From: Tieghemostelium lacteum
Taxonomy: Eukaryota > Evosea > Eumycetozoa > Dictyosteliales > Raperosteliaceae
Direction of reading: 5' to 3'
Assembly (NCBI GenBank): GCA_001606155.1
Contig: LODT01000016.1
Coordinates: 62,001-126,000, forward strand
Length of the DNA stretch: 64,000 nucleotides
The number at the start of each line of letters is the position of its first letter. Position 1 is the first letter of the stretch. Both the position numbers and the translations under genes were made by a program. This document shows, one piece after another, positions 56,304 through 64,000 of this stretch. The notes beneath the pieces were generated by a model that saw nothing but the letters and a program-made list of their open reading frames with translations, did no database searches and was not told where the DNA came from.

Positions 56304-56458
56304 TCTAAAGAAAAGCAAAAAAAGGGTTGCAGATGTCGAGAGCGAGGATAAAAATAAAAATAAAACCCACTCCCATTTTTTATTTTATTTTTACAATTGA
56401 AACAACAGCTGGCTTTCACAAACTATTAATATAGACACTTATATAACATGTCTATAGA

Positions 56459-57574
56459 ATGTACAGTGAAAGAGTAATACATAAATTTAATCCAAAGGTT
56501 AAACAAAATAGTGTGACCAATTTAAAAGACAGCGCAAATAAGTCACCTGACCCTTATTATATATTAAGAGGTCACAATTCCTATATTAACTCGGTGGTTT
56601 TTGATAGATGGAATCCAAATATACTCTACTCAGGCTCTGGTGATGGAGAACTGAGGATTTGGGATATACAAGAAAAGAAATGTCTAGAGTCATATCCAAT
56701 GGCACATAGAGACAGTAGAGGTATTCTATCAATGCAATCGATAAAGTTATCGAACGGTCAATCTCACTTAGTTACACAGGGTAGAGATGGCACTATAAAG
56801 CTATGGAGATGTACAGAGTCACAATTGACACTTGTAGAGACTTTAGAAACATCTTCTATTTCATTAGCAAAATGTTCAACTTTTGTTGCATCTCTAGGAG
56901 GCACAAATCAAGAGGGAACACCTGATATCAACAGTTCTGCAAATTTATTGGCAATGGCATCTGATGAGTTACCATCTAATGTAGATTTGTGGGATCTAAA
57001 TACTAAAGAAGTAGTAGTAAAATGTAAACCTACTAATCCATCTCTACTAGGAGTTTGTATGAGTTTGAAATTGTTTTCCAATCCTGATTCAGGACACTTA
57101 AACCTACTATCTGGATATGAAAATGGGTCTATTGTATTATGGGATATCAGACAACCTGACAAACTTCTATACACAAATAAAATTCATGAAGAACCTGTAT
57201 TGGCAATGGATATCTCCGGTAATAAAGTTGTATCAGGTGGTGGTGATACTCTACTCTGCCAATTCTCTATAACTAAATCAGAAGATCAAACCAGTAATGA
57301 TGATTCATTTGAAATACTCAACAAATACCAATTACCAAATCAAGGAATCTCTGAAATCAAAATTAGACCAGATAAAAAAATCATTGCAACTGCTGGTTGG
57401 GATCATCGTGTTAGAATATTTAATTTCAAAAAGCATACACCATTGGCTATTTTGAAATATCATGAAGAGTCTGTATATACCATTGATTTTAACACTAATA
57501 ATATACTAGCTAGTGCTTCAAAAGATATGAGAATAGCACTGTGGTCCATCTACAATGACAATAATACAAAATAA
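56459..57574 (+). CDS. gnb1l: WD40 protein GNB1L/Asa1-like
   Basis: Single exon, 371 aa, a seven-bladed WD40 propeller (ILRGHNSYINSVVFD, SGSGDGELRIWDI, VTQGRDGTIKLW, SGYENGSIVLWDI, SASKDMRIALWSI). The C-terminal block IRPDKKIIATAGWDHRVRIF followed by TPLAIL matches the GNB1L signature closely. GNB1L and yeast Asa1 work with the TTT-Tel2 cochaperone to mature PI3K-like kinases such as TOR and ATM. A short upstream ATG (56449) opens a nine-codon frame overlapping the start, which could dampen translation. Confidence 0.88.
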   Translation: MYSERVIHKFNPKVKQNSVTNLKDSANKSPDPYYILRGHNSYINSVVFDRWNPNILYSGSGDGELRIWDIQEKKCLESYPMAHRDSRGILSMQSIKLSNGQSHLVTQGRDGTIKLWRCTESQLTLVETLETSSISLAKCSTFVASLGGTNQEGTPDINSSANLLAMASDELPSNVDLWDLNTKEVVVKCKPTNPSLLGVCMSLKLFSNPDSGHLNLLSGYENGSIVLWDIRQPDKLLYTNKIHEEPVLAMDISGNKVVSGGGDTLLCQFSITKSEDQTSNDDSFEILNKYQLPNQGISEIKIRPDKKIIATAGWDHRVRIFNFKKHTPLAILKYHEESVYTIDFNTNNILASASKDMRIALWSIYNDNNTK

Positions 57575-58751: not shown

Positions 58752-58958
58752 ATGAAATCCAATATAATAGTCGTATTAGTTTTTATTGCTTTGATGGGTT
58801 TCATAATGGCACAAAATGAAGAAAAATGTAATGAAGACTACGCTAAAATGGCAATATATATCGAAGATCGCTATAGAGAAACCCATGATTTTAATGCCTA
58901 CGAGAGAGCCTTAATGACTATAAATACTGTCTTACAAGATTGTTTAGGTACTAATTAA
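58752..58958 (+). CDS. Small secreted peptide precursor, unknown
   Basis: 68 aa. A clear signal peptide (MKSNIIVVLVFIALMGFIMA, cleavage after MAQ or IMA) leads to a mature peptide of about 47 residues with two cysteines, EKCNEDYAKMAIYIEDRYR and TINTVLQDCLGTN, and an otherwise amphipathic helical look. One disulfide between the Cys near each end would make a helical hairpin. Function unknown. Confidence 0.6.
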   Translation: MKSNIIVVLVFIALMGFIMAQNEEKCNEDYAKMAIYIEDRYRETHDFNAYERALMTINTVLQDCLGTN

Positions 58959-59490: not shown

Positions 59491-62400
59491 TTATAATAGA
59501 GTTGAGGTATTTGCTTGTTTACCGTATTGTTCAATGAATTGTTTTTGTCTTTCTGTAAAGGTTTCTTTTAGTTCTTTGGTCTTTTTTACAATGGATTTGT
59601 CATAAACTTGATAGACAATTTCATTGTCTTTTATATAGTTTCTACCTACTATAGTTGGGAAAAGACCTTCTTCTACTAATAATGATAAAAAGAAGTTTTG
59701 ATGGTGGAAAGAGTTACTGTAGAAACTGAGAGATATGGTTACTTCATTCCAATTGATATCACCACCACCACGAATATGTCTAATTTCAGAGACTTTTAAT
59801 TCAGCTCTGCTTGCAAGTGAAATAATTTTAGCAAGGTTTCCTGGGTAGTCCCATGTTGTAAGATGAATGGTAAAGGAACGTCCAAGAGAACGTAGACCAT
59901 ATTCATATACTTGTCTAAGTGTAGACATATCAATATTACCACCACAAATAATGACTACAACTTTTTCATCTTTTCTAACTTTGATCTTGTGATGTAGAAG
60001 TGCTGCTAGACCAAGGCATCCAGCACCTTCAGAGACAGTACGACTATTGTAGAGTAAATGAACAATAGTAGAAGCAATCTCATTTTCACTTACAGTAACA
60101 TATTCATCAACAAGGTCACTGAGAACCTGTGTATGAACACCACCAGGCATCTTTACATTGGTACCATCAGCCAGTGAAAGTACAGCAGGTTCAATATATC
60201 TAAGTTGATGTGTTTGTTTGAAATCTGCAAGTGTGGAGACATTGGCAGATTGGACACCTATAATACGGATATTTGGATTGATTCTCTTGAGGAACAAAGC
60301 AATACCAGCAATCATTCCACCTCCACCTACATTTACTAGTACTGTATCTACATCTGGTATCTTGTCGTAGATATCGCACCCCATAGTTCCTTGACCTTCA
60401 ATGACATCTACATCGTTATATGGTCTGACCAATGTCCAATCACGTTCAGCACAAATCTGTTCAGCTCTCTTTACAGCATCTTCCAAAGAGTTACCATGTT
60501 TAATAACCTCAGCACCATATTGTTTAGTTGCTGTAAGTTTGGTATCTGGAGCGTACTCAGGACAAACTATAGTACATGGTAGACCAACTTTTGCAGAAAT
60601 CAATGCAACACCTTGAGCATGGTTACCAGCAGATGCAGCAACCAAACCCTGTGGTCTAATCTCAGATTGTTCAATAGACTTCAACACCATATTTGATGAG
60701 CCTCTAATCTTAAAAGACCCAGTTTTTTGAATATTTTCCAACATTAATGAGACTTTACAATCACACAATTTGGAATAGGTTGTAGAGTGGTATATTGGGG
60801 TTGGTGACATGATATGTTTAATTCTCTTTTGAGCAGCTCTAATAGATTCCACAGTTATATCTGTAATCTTTCTGGCTTTGTGTACGTAATGTGGAGTTGA
60901 TGGATTTTTAACAGGAGATGCAGTGGTAGTACTAATAGGTTGGAACTGAAGGTTGTTACTACTGTTTGTCAATGCGCCTACTTTGAGATAAGGTGGAGAG
61001 AGAACAGTACTCTTTAACAAATCATCCTTATTATTTACCAAAGATTTGGTTAGATTGAATTTGAATCCTAAACCTTTGATAATCTCACACACATGAGTTT
61101 GCTGCTCAAAGTTTCTGGAATGGCATTGAATGGTGACTCTGACATGATAGACTTTCAAAGTCTCACAAGAACGGTCCATCAAGACCTCTACAACCGATAC
61201 CTTATTATCACCAATAACCGATAGAACCTTACTGAGAGCAGTAGTGTTATCAGGAAGATCCAACTCGATTTCAAAACTCTGACCAGTAAGATCCAATCCA
61301 TACTGAAGAATAGTCTGAAAATCAATGACATCTACAAAACCACCACTAATCATGACAACAACCTTCTCATCTGGTTTCATTAGAATCTTTCCAGAGAGAA
61401 GACCACCCAGTGCAATAGCACCTTTGCCATTAGTCAGGGTATGTGTGTATTCCATACACTTTATAAAAGCCAAAGCCGACTGATCTTCAGTGACAGTTAC
61501 CAGTGTGTCTACAACCTCATGTTTCAAGAGGTTCTCCAAAGAGAACTGTTTTGAGAAATATGAGAATCTTCTATCACACTGACCAATACAAAAGGTATGT
61601 TGATTGATAAACTCGTGAACAAACTCAGTCTGACTTAGAGATGACTTTGGAGGCATGACAGCAATGTTTCTAGACTTGTCACCACCAATATTCCAAAGTA
61701 CATTCTCAAGATCGTCCTTATTGAATTTACCTTGGTTTCTTGAATCAAAACTATCAAATACATTAGTCAAATCCGATTGATCGTGAATAAGTGCCAACCA
61801 ACCAAGTTCCAAACGATCAGGGAACAGAGATTGTCTTGAAAATTCGTTACCTTCAGTATCCTTACCTACAAGATCCTCAGTCATCTGTACTACAATAACT
61901 CTAATTTTAGGTTGAACTAGTTTATAGTACATGGAAATACCACTTACATAGGTCCAACCTACCTGGTAGATTCTCAGTGGAATAATAACAGTTTCCCTAT
62001 CCTTACTATACACATACATCTCATGAGCCAATGTAGCAGCACCCAACACAGCAAACTGTTGAATAAATCTTAAATCCAAAAATACCATAGACATATCATT
62101 AGCATGTTGATTAGCTCTTCCAACACATGACTCAATATCACCCTTATGAAAAATCAATTTTGCACCTCTTGCATGACACATGTACAACTAAAATAAAATA
62201 ATAATAATAATTAGTATAAATCACAAAAAAATCTCAATTTTTGAAATTATTGACACTTGCTCTTGTGATTTGAGATAATGATAATTCACCTGGTGATACA
62301 TAAATTATACATTTGAATTTCAAATGAAGTGCAGTTAGAATTGCACCAGTTACATTTGACTGTAAATCTGATTCCTTTGGATTGTAGACCATTACAAAAC

Positions 62401-62899
62401 CACCAATCTCTGCAAATTTCTTATTATGAAGTCTCTGAACTTGATTAAAATAGTTACCCAATAAAATAGACATACAATTTCTTACAAAGATATCACCAAA
62501 CAATTGAAGATTCTCTAATTTCAATTGTAGGTCACATTTGAATAGCTGAGATAACAGTTCATATTCATATTGTGGTGTTGTCTTTAGATATTGTTTAGTG
62601 TACTGTGAGAGTCTTTCAACTGTTGCTAAAAAATCAATATCATCACCCTGTTTCTGTCTGATTATACCGTCCCCTATCTCTTTAAATCCTTCAATATGTT
62701 TTAATGGATTATTTGAACCACTGTTGTTGCTATTGTTATCATTATTATTGTTGTTATTACTACTGTGACTTTTGTCACCGTTGGTATTGTGAGGTTTTTC
62801 TAATTTAATTTTTTTTGTATCTACTTCATCAATATCAGTATTAGTAGTCGTAGTAGTGTCTTTACTTGAATTTCTAGAATGTTTCTGTAGTTCAGACAT
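59491..62899 (-). CDS. Double threonine dehydratase fusion (pseudo-enzyme plus enzyme)
   Basis: Exon 2 is 59491-62187; exon 1 is 62255-62899 (donor GTCAAT) or 62300-62899 (donor GTATCA), both phase 0; about 1100 aa. After an Asn/Ser-rich leader come two tandem copies of PLP-fold plus ACT-like domain. The C-terminal copy is a complete type II threonine dehydratase: LENIQKTGSFKIRG with PLP Lys near residue 708, SAGNHAQG, VNVGGGGMIAGI, SEGAGCLGLAAL, then an ACT domain. The N-terminal copy keeps the fold outline (LENLQLFGDIFVRN, ARGAKLI, GKGAIALGGLLSG) but has no PLP Lys or glycine loop and carries an EF-hand-like insert. The enzyme deaminates threonine/serine to 2-oxobutyrate/pyruvate. Confidence 0.87.
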
Positions 62900-63267: not shown

Positions 63268-63905
63268 TTACAATTTGTTTTGATTTTGATTTTGGTTTTG
63301 TTGTTGCATTTGTTGTTGATTTTGTTGTTGGTTTTGGTTTTGATTTTGATTTTGATTTTGATTTTGATTTTGTTGTTGGTTTTGGTTTTGGTTTTGGTTT
63401 AGTTGATGTTGTTGTTGTTCACGTTGTTGTTGCTCACGTTGTTGAGTTTGTTGCATTTGTTGTTGTTCACGTTGTTGTTGTTCACGTTGTTGGTTTTGTT
63501 GTTCAAATTGTTGACGTTGTTGGTCCATTTGTTTGTGTTGTTGATCCAATTGTTGATGTTGGAATTGTTCGTATTGGTGGTACTGTTGTTGTTGTTGTGG
63601 GTTTAATTGTTGGTATTGTTGGAATTGTTGGAATTGTTGGAATTGTTGTTGGTATTGTAGTTGTTGTTGTGGGTTCATTTGTTGGTATTGTTGTAATTGT
63701 TGTTGGAGTTGTTGGTACTGTTGTTGTTGTTGTGGATTCAATTGTTGGTACTGTTGTTGTTGTTGGTATTGTTGTAACTGTTGTTGTAATTGTTGGTATT
63801 GTTGAAGTTGTTGTTGGTTAAGTTGTTGATGTGGGAATTGTTGGAATTGTTGGAACTGTTGGAGTTGTTGTGGATTGAATTGTTGATGTGGGAACTGTTG
63901 TGGTT
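63268..63905 (-). repeat. CAA-rich low-complexity coding repeat
   Basis: Long imperfect trinucleotide tract (CAACAA with interspersed TAC, TTC, CGT and AAT codons on the minus strand) encoding the Gln-rich tail. It divides into a Q-Y/F-L part (63560-63905), a Q-R-E part (63400-63560) and a Q-N part (63268-63400). Mixed codons indicate a composite rather than a freshly slipped repeat. Confidence 0.85.
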
Positions 63906-64000
63906 GTTGTTGGATGTACTGATTGGTGGTTTGTGGTGGTATAAAACCAAAGTTTCTAGCAGTTTCAATAAAGATTAATCTACCAATGAAAACATTTGGA
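63268..64000 (-). CDS. 3' part of a Gln-rich protein gene (cut by window edge)
   Basis: An open frame runs from the right edge to the stop at 63268, about 244 codons, so only the C-terminal part is seen. It starts with ordinary sequence (PNVFIGRLIFIETARNFGF, then IPPQTTNQ) and turns into a long tail of Gln with periodic Tyr, Phe, Leu and Pro (QQYQQLQQQLQQ, QFQQFQQF), then Glu/Arg-containing QQREQQ units, then Gln-Asn alternation. Such tails are common in dictyostelid transcription and RNA-binding proteins. The product cannot be named from this part. Confidence 0.7.
   Translation of the reverse strand, partial: PNVFIGRLIFIETARNFGFIPPQTTNQYIQQQPQQFPHQQFNPQQLQQFQQFQQFPHQQLNQQQLQQYQQLQQQLQQYQQQQQYQQLNPQQQQQYQQLQQQLQQYQQMNPQQQLQYQQQFQQFQQFQQYQQLNPQQQQQYHQYEQFQHQQLDQQHKQMDQQRQQFEQQNQQREQQQREQQQMQQTQQREQQQREQQQHQLNQNQNQNQQQNQNQNQNQNQNQNQQQNQQQMQQQNQNQNQNKL

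Follow-up and report, generated by a model that had tools for sequence, protein, structure and literature searches.

The 64,000-nt window of Tieghemostelium lacteum DNA, located on contig 14 of the 23.3-Mb genome that was searched, carries on its reverse strand a gene in which a normal-looking threonine ammonia-lyase is fused in frame to what appears to be a dead twin of itself; judged from the sequence, this arrangement is real and unusual. The predicted product contains two homologous tandem units, each composed of a PLP-fold followed by an ACT-like domain (Table 1), as the initial annotation had proposed for a single gene; the one frame, a BLASTP match between the units and a 131-bit profile match all agree with that proposal. 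The units are referred to as N unit (approximately residues 92–595) and C unit (residues 653–1113, tail included), with residues numbered after the 1113-residue model (donor 62254).

Table 1. Features of the fusion gene (window positions) and the encoded residues
Feature	Positions	Strand	Residues and remarks
Whole gene	59491–62899	-	approximately 1,100 residues, two tandem units, one intron; 1113 (donor 62254) or 1098 (donor 62299) residues
Exon 1	62899 to 62255 (or 62300)	-	start ATG at 62899
Intron	62188–62254	-	67 nt (112 nt with donor 62299); GC 13% in the 67 nt
Exon 2	62187–59491	-	single open frame, 898 codons; stop codon ends at 59491
N-terminal tail	62627–62899	-	aa 1–91; Asn/Ser/Thr-rich, without family match
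N unit, PLP-fold, first part	62255–62626	-	aa 92–215; Phe138 (62488–62486) in place of the PLP Lys
N unit, PLP-fold, continued	61879–62187	-	aa 216–318; glycine loop lost
N unit, insert region	61522–61878	-	aa 319–437
EF-hand-like segment	61672–61776	-	aa 353–387; 12-residue loop D363–D374 at 61746–61711; Pfam scores all under curated cut-offs
N unit, PLP-fold, end	61279–61521	-	aa 438–518
N unit, ACT-like domain	61048–61278	-	aa 519–595; three Pfam ACT models E 0.004–0.01, under cut-off; TIGR01127 over N part
Linker	60877–61047	-	aa 596–652; no Met until M675, in the C unit
C unit, catalytic domain	59878–60876	-	aa 653–985; PLP Lys708 at 60711–60709
C unit, ACT-like domain	59647–59877	-	aa 986–1062; TIGR01127 alignment reaches profile position 375 of 380
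C-terminal tail	59494–59646	-	aa 1063–1113; without aligned relatives

The start and stop codons had been placed correctly in the initial annotation. The acceptor AG of the intron ends at 62188 and is in frame with both candidate donors, 62254 and 62299, and three more open splice variants use a different acceptor. A profile of relatives scored the five open variants at 130.9, 130.2, 128.5, 127.7 and 126.6 bits, which does not separate them; because all of them score about alike, the homology of the N unit is independent of donor choice. Base composition favours donor 62254 (GC of 36% in the 45 nt between the donors and 30% in exon 1 up to 62300, vs. the AT-rich 67-nt intron); GTA, which we take to be the usual donor form, favours 62299. 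Exon 2 holds the remainder of the N unit together with the entire C unit, and a stop-free run of this length would arise by chance with a probability of approximately 8e-29, given the base composition of the exon's N part. Codon habits of the two units correlate at 0.84 in frame, vs. 0.62–0.68 in the other frames and 0.63 antisense. Between residues 592 and 740 the only Met codons are 675, 697 and 715, all within the C unit, and the scan from residue 592 found no Met upstream of M675 or of the conserved N-terminal helix of that unit. The fusion is solid, since both units share one 898-codon frame and no start Met precedes the core of the C unit.

The C-terminal unit had been credited with every catalytic motif, and all were found in place: the PLP-binding Lys708, SAGNHAQ at residues 734–740 and GGGGM at 836–840. 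Exon 2 matches the Pfam PALP family with an E value of 2.5e-85. For column counts we used 88 relatives, 8 from plasmids and 80 from genome contigs (a contig scan with the C unit alone as query returned no relatives, and with alignment A1 as query 80 loci), among which 58 positions at least 95% conserved were taken as near-invariant. These were sorted into active-site (14) and other (44) columns with the help of a residue network given in an excerpt of PMC5998037 and of known contacts. The C unit retains 49 of the 58, being identical at 13 of the 14 active-site columns (the exception is L to M at 840) and at 36 of the 44 others; the nine differences include Met697, which is Lys in 88/88 relatives. 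TIGR01127 is its best NCBIfam model (362.6 bits), below the curated cut-off of 378.75; the whole of exon 2 clears this cut-off with 461.3 bits because the scores of both units add up. On these scores TIGR01127 is the nearest family of the C unit, which is not a formal member by itself. The nearest solved sequence is that of a catabolic threonine dehydratase (PDB 2gn0, E 3e-72). Gln740 sits in the S-x-G-N-x-x-Q run, and nucleotide-regulated serine racemases, like TdcB, have Gln at the corresponding position (excerpt of PMC5998037); nucleotide control of the C unit may therefore be possible. Taken by its motifs, the C unit resembles a functional threonine ammonia-lyase carrying a single ACT-like domain, an activity that we infer from its kin.

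The N unit is recognizable along its whole length. A profile built from the 88 relatives, with the window sequence left out, matches it in three blocks of collinear order (profile positions 4–52, 86–203 and 244–398; 131 bits in total), and BLASTP of N vs. C, as a comparison of two sequences only, finds similarity over the last part (E 2e-19) and the first (E 6e-8). The part encoded by exon 2 aligns by hhalign with alignment A1, in which the C unit is included, at a probability of 99% (E 1.5e-18); its PALP match has an E value of 1.4e-7 but, at 31.6 bits, stays below the cut-off (35), and its nearest PDB sequence is again 2gn0 (E 4.7e-8). Exon 1 alone gave no Pfam family match at E 10, and matched PRK06815 of NCBIfam with E 0.00097. 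Since TIGR01127 is the closest NCBIfam model to the N part (105.8 bits, E 2.4e-30; next model 73.1 bits), the N unit comes from the ACT-bearing type of enzyme.

Conservation in the N unit is markedly uneven. It keeps 24 of the 58 near-invariant columns (41%), divided into 1 of 14 active-site and 23 of 44 other columns (Fisher p 0.004, a descriptive value, as the active-site columns were chosen after the alignment was viewed). At the motif columns of the C unit it has Phe138 for Lys708, DLQSNVT at residues 178–184 and R/GWTY in the glycine-loop columns; the active-site Glu is replaced by Asn468 and the Asn by Phe499. The cap region following the lost Lys measures 37 residues vs. a median of 21. 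With Lys replaced by Phe138, the SAGNHAQ run gone and the glycine loop broken, a Schiff-base linkage to PLP is not expected in the N unit. The earlier description of an N-terminal unit alignable along its length but devoid of the PLP Lys and the glycine-rich loop was thus accurate, down to the GDIFVRN segment, which is present. From the alignment, the loss is concentrated in the active site, and the N unit is best read as a real, far-diverged copy of the same kind of enzyme with its active site stripped.

As to the ACT-like domains, Pfam ACT models gave no match on a 147-aa slice of the C unit. The conserved Asp is present in both units, and the Pro-Gly pair survives in the C unit only; in place of the conserved Asn, the C unit has Lys and the N unit Ser. 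We take these columns to be the effector-binding positions. Canonical amino-acid binding is, by these residues, doubtful in both domains, and the damage makes a simple switch operated by amino acids less likely.

A second unit is absent from all 88 relatives, as the eight longest frames hold one unit each; frames of more than 600 codons occur in five of the 88. Of 119 genomes from a single bacterial phylum, 56 matched at E 1e-60, and the longest frame among the matches listed was 570 aa. Among the matches listed in the open-licence literature, no description of a fusion of this sort was found. A quick tree placed N next to C with a support of 0 and with a warning that long branches may meet, the branch lengths being 7.27 changes per column for N vs. 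1.65 for C. Ranked among 89 sequences by similarity to the N unit, the C unit is 11th by identity and 6th by BLOSUM score. N and C have in common an extra loop residue, which is occupied in 14% of relatives, and they share 10 rare residues, but two relatives share 9 each. The simplest guess is that the N unit arose from C by tandem duplication.

The order of PLP-fold and ACT-like domain in both units is that of TIGR01127 enzymes (ilvA_1Cterm, one ACT domain), from which the gene differs in having two units per chain, one of them without an active site. The catabolic threonine deaminase TdcB (2gn0), the nearest solved sequence for both units, and serine racemase have neither an ACT domain nor a fused dead copy. 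Biosynthetic IlvA (PDB 1tdj; TIGR01124) has the same catalytic fold (C unit vs. 1tdj, E 4.7e-43) and carries two C-terminal ACT-like subdomains, through which isoleucine and valine exert control (excerpt of PMC3901761), vs. one per unit here; a known enzyme with a single such subdomain is described, likewise in an excerpt, as controlled by isoleucine or valine. In fission yeast, threonine deaminase is under negative control by FKBP12, probably via the ACT domains (excerpt of PMC9730122). Dead relatives that control active enzymes are known from other systems. TSB-like of core eudicots is a dead member of the PLP family that activates TSA (excerpt of PMC12727527), and the N unit is likewise a dead PLP-family relative, presumed by analogy to be a partner; yet TSB-like is a separate chain with two key residue changes and activates a different enzyme, whereas here the copy is fused and its site stripped. 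In trypanosomatids, too, a catalytically dead paralogue controls its active relative, in the case of prozyme, which activates AdoMetDC (excerpt of PMC5201418), and of the deoxyhypusine synthase pair (excerpt of PMC3663545). Unlike the gene described here, both of these pairs have other folds and consist of separate chains.

Seven PALP matches were found in the genome, the fusion gene being the only threonine-dehydratase-like one; the remaining six were assigned by eye as serine racemase, cystathionine beta-synthase, two cysteine-synthase-like genes, serine dehydratase and threonine synthase. When the N part was searched against the genome, the three matches up to E 1 were all itself or the C unit. 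There were no matches to dihydroxyacid dehydratase (ILVD_EDD_N) in the genome, which argues for threonine catabolism, and the enzyme is accordingly more readily pictured as one of the catabolic type. KARI_N gave three partial and weak matches (22.6–25.8 bits, with a low family cut-off of 20.6), probably other NAD(P)-binding proteins. Isoleucine feedback was considered as the purpose of the arrangement and is unlikely given that no dihydroxyacid dehydratase match was found, although the three KARI_N matches do lie over the cut-off of their family. Elsewhere in the window are a WD40-repeat protein frame (56447–57574, forward strand; Pfam WD40 E 3.9e-28), a short 68-residue frame that begins with a hydrophobic stretch resembling a signal peptide (58752–58958, forward strand) and a Gln/Asn-rich protein that continues past the window end (63268–63999, reverse strand); the latter two have no Pfam match.

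We give an even chance to a reading, drawn largely by analogy, in which the N half is a pseudoenzyme that acts in cis as a partner or regulator of the active C half. The gene would yield one long protein, whose C half would be an active, catabolic-type threonine (probably also serine) ammonia-lyase with one ACT-like domain. The N half would descend from the same kind of enzyme, have lost its PLP and substrate site and stay in cis, packing on the C half via surfaces normally used for dimers and ACT pairs. It would thereby govern the C half in its conformation, its stability or its response to effectors, and the EF-hand-like insert would be a structural elaboration that does not bind calcium. 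We infer the pairing of the units from their kin. The single 898-codon frame, the full-length homology, the active-site-concentrated loss and the shared codon habits speak for a pseudoenzyme, as may the status of the gene as the only threonine-dehydratase-like one in the genome and the precedents of TSB-like and prozyme. The damaged ACT ligand residues in both units would weaken the model of a pseudoenzyme regulator, and the very long N branch (7.27 vs. 1.65) counts against it, as it would also fit weak constraint. Nor is the intact N frame a proof of function, because the C unit, having no start of its own, requires that frame to be open. In its fullest form, held tentatively and with less than even confidence, the proposal is of a threonine deaminase with a fused, active-site-less copy of itself as allosteric regulator, an intramolecular prozyme of PLP fold II into which an EF-hand-like insert was recruited; every molecule would then be a pseudo-dimer with one active site, suited in an amoeba to breaking down threonine and releasing ammonia.

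The N unit might instead be a scaffold only, a fixed pseudo-dimer or pseudo-tetramer face that replaces a second active subunit and passes no signal. We regard this as unlikely. It would account for the retention of fold-type columns alongside the loss of active-site ones, and fold type II enzymes are reported to have active sites within one subunit and to function as dimers or tetramers, which carry allosteric control (excerpt of PMC9081730); yet it leaves unexplained why the dead half has an ACT-like domain and an EF-hand-like insert. Distinctly improbable is a relic, in which the first copy of a tandem duplication is drifting and is kept only because one and the same message encodes the second. 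The great length of the N branch, the loss of most conserved residues (24/58 kept) and the need for an open N frame for the C unit to be made are all in keeping with a relic, but at several changes per column the N unit has kept 41% of the near-invariant columns and all its blocks in collinear order, and the loss is concentrated in the active site. We attach equally little probability to an N unit with a new ligand or activity of its own, its pocket rebuilt for non-PLP use: the cap region is enlarged (37 residues vs. a median of 21) and there is a 79-residue excess elsewhere, yet the families scanned revealed no other ligand or reaction motif.

This excess lies between V315 and D442, which are spaced by 126 residues in the N unit, vs. 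a median of 47 and a maximum of 49 in relatives and the C unit, leaving approximately 79 residues in surplus. The insert sequence quoted in the initial annotation, FDSFDSRNQGKFNKDDLENV, is present in the N unit. A slice of the insert matched only EF-hand families in Pfam, namely EF-hand_7 (E 0.0044; 17.8 bits, cut-off 30) and EF-hand_6 (E 0.043; 14.0 bits, cut-off 25), and no others. Among the 27 PDB matches listed, 22 were named EF-hand proteins (calmodulins, myosin light chains, centrin/Cdc31 and several copies of programmed cell death protein 6), and the other five were one protein kinase and four unrelated proteins, three CheW and one acetyltransferase; the best was a putative calmodulin (E 0.005), with all others at E 0.12 or above. 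An EF-hand profile from the same genome, built on 24 of 30 stretches (the rest contained stops or lacked a D-x-D-like run), scored the segment at 14.2 bits, a value reached by 0 of 5000 shuffles (4804 reported, best 13.3). At the same time, the N-unit insert was absent among the 56 matches of a genome-wide EF-hand_7 search. The loop reads D-S-R-N-Q-G-K-F-N-K-D-D, with D, R, Q and D at positions 1, 3, 5 and 12. In 35 loops from the same genome, position 3 is D/N in 33 and position 5 is D/N/S in 33, and position 12 is E in 29 and D in 6. No second intact EF-hand loop was found in the insert. The sequence after the loop may be either a second, broken EF-hand or native: hhalign sets NIAVMPP of the N unit against IAVKxPG of the relatives, a register that is weak in a shuffle test (208 of 20000 for 7 columns, while with 12 columns the best place is elsewhere) and that, if right, would split the excess into two inserts of approximately 44 and 35 residues.

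An EF-hand-like loop with altered ligand residues, as first described, is thus present, although the likeness is weak and under the Pfam cut-offs; the calcium response suggested for it is not supported, given Arg and Gln at positions 3 and 5 and the failure to find a second intact loop. From its residues, we consider the segment to be a relic or mimic of an EF-hand, with no normal calcium site. That the N unit is a present-day calcium sensor which switches the enzyme is accordingly very improbable: the EF-hand-only Pfam matches (E 0.0044 and 0.043), the 22 EF-hand proteins among the 27 PDB matches listed (several copies of one, with a single E value below 0.1) and the shuffle result point towards it, whereas the Arg and Gln together with Asp at position 12, the sub-threshold Pfam scores, the absence from the 56 genome-wide EF-hand_7 matches and the lack of a second intact loop in the insert point away, and calcium sensing as a present function was rejected because the loop ligands are changed. 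An annotation artefact, with two genes joined through a missed intron or a mis-assembly, is hardly credible, for although the exon 1 donor is ambiguous (62254 or 62299), the units join inside the uninterrupted 898-codon exon, and no Met precedes the conserved N-terminal helix of the C unit.

Threonine deaminase, a textbook case of allostery, is elsewhere under the control of ACT domains. With a whole dead copy of the enzyme fused in front, the gene would offer a clean natural test of the control of an active twin by a pseudoenzyme, both being on the same chain and the assay a simple one. In the social amoeba itself, the fusion may matter for the output of ammonia from amino acids.
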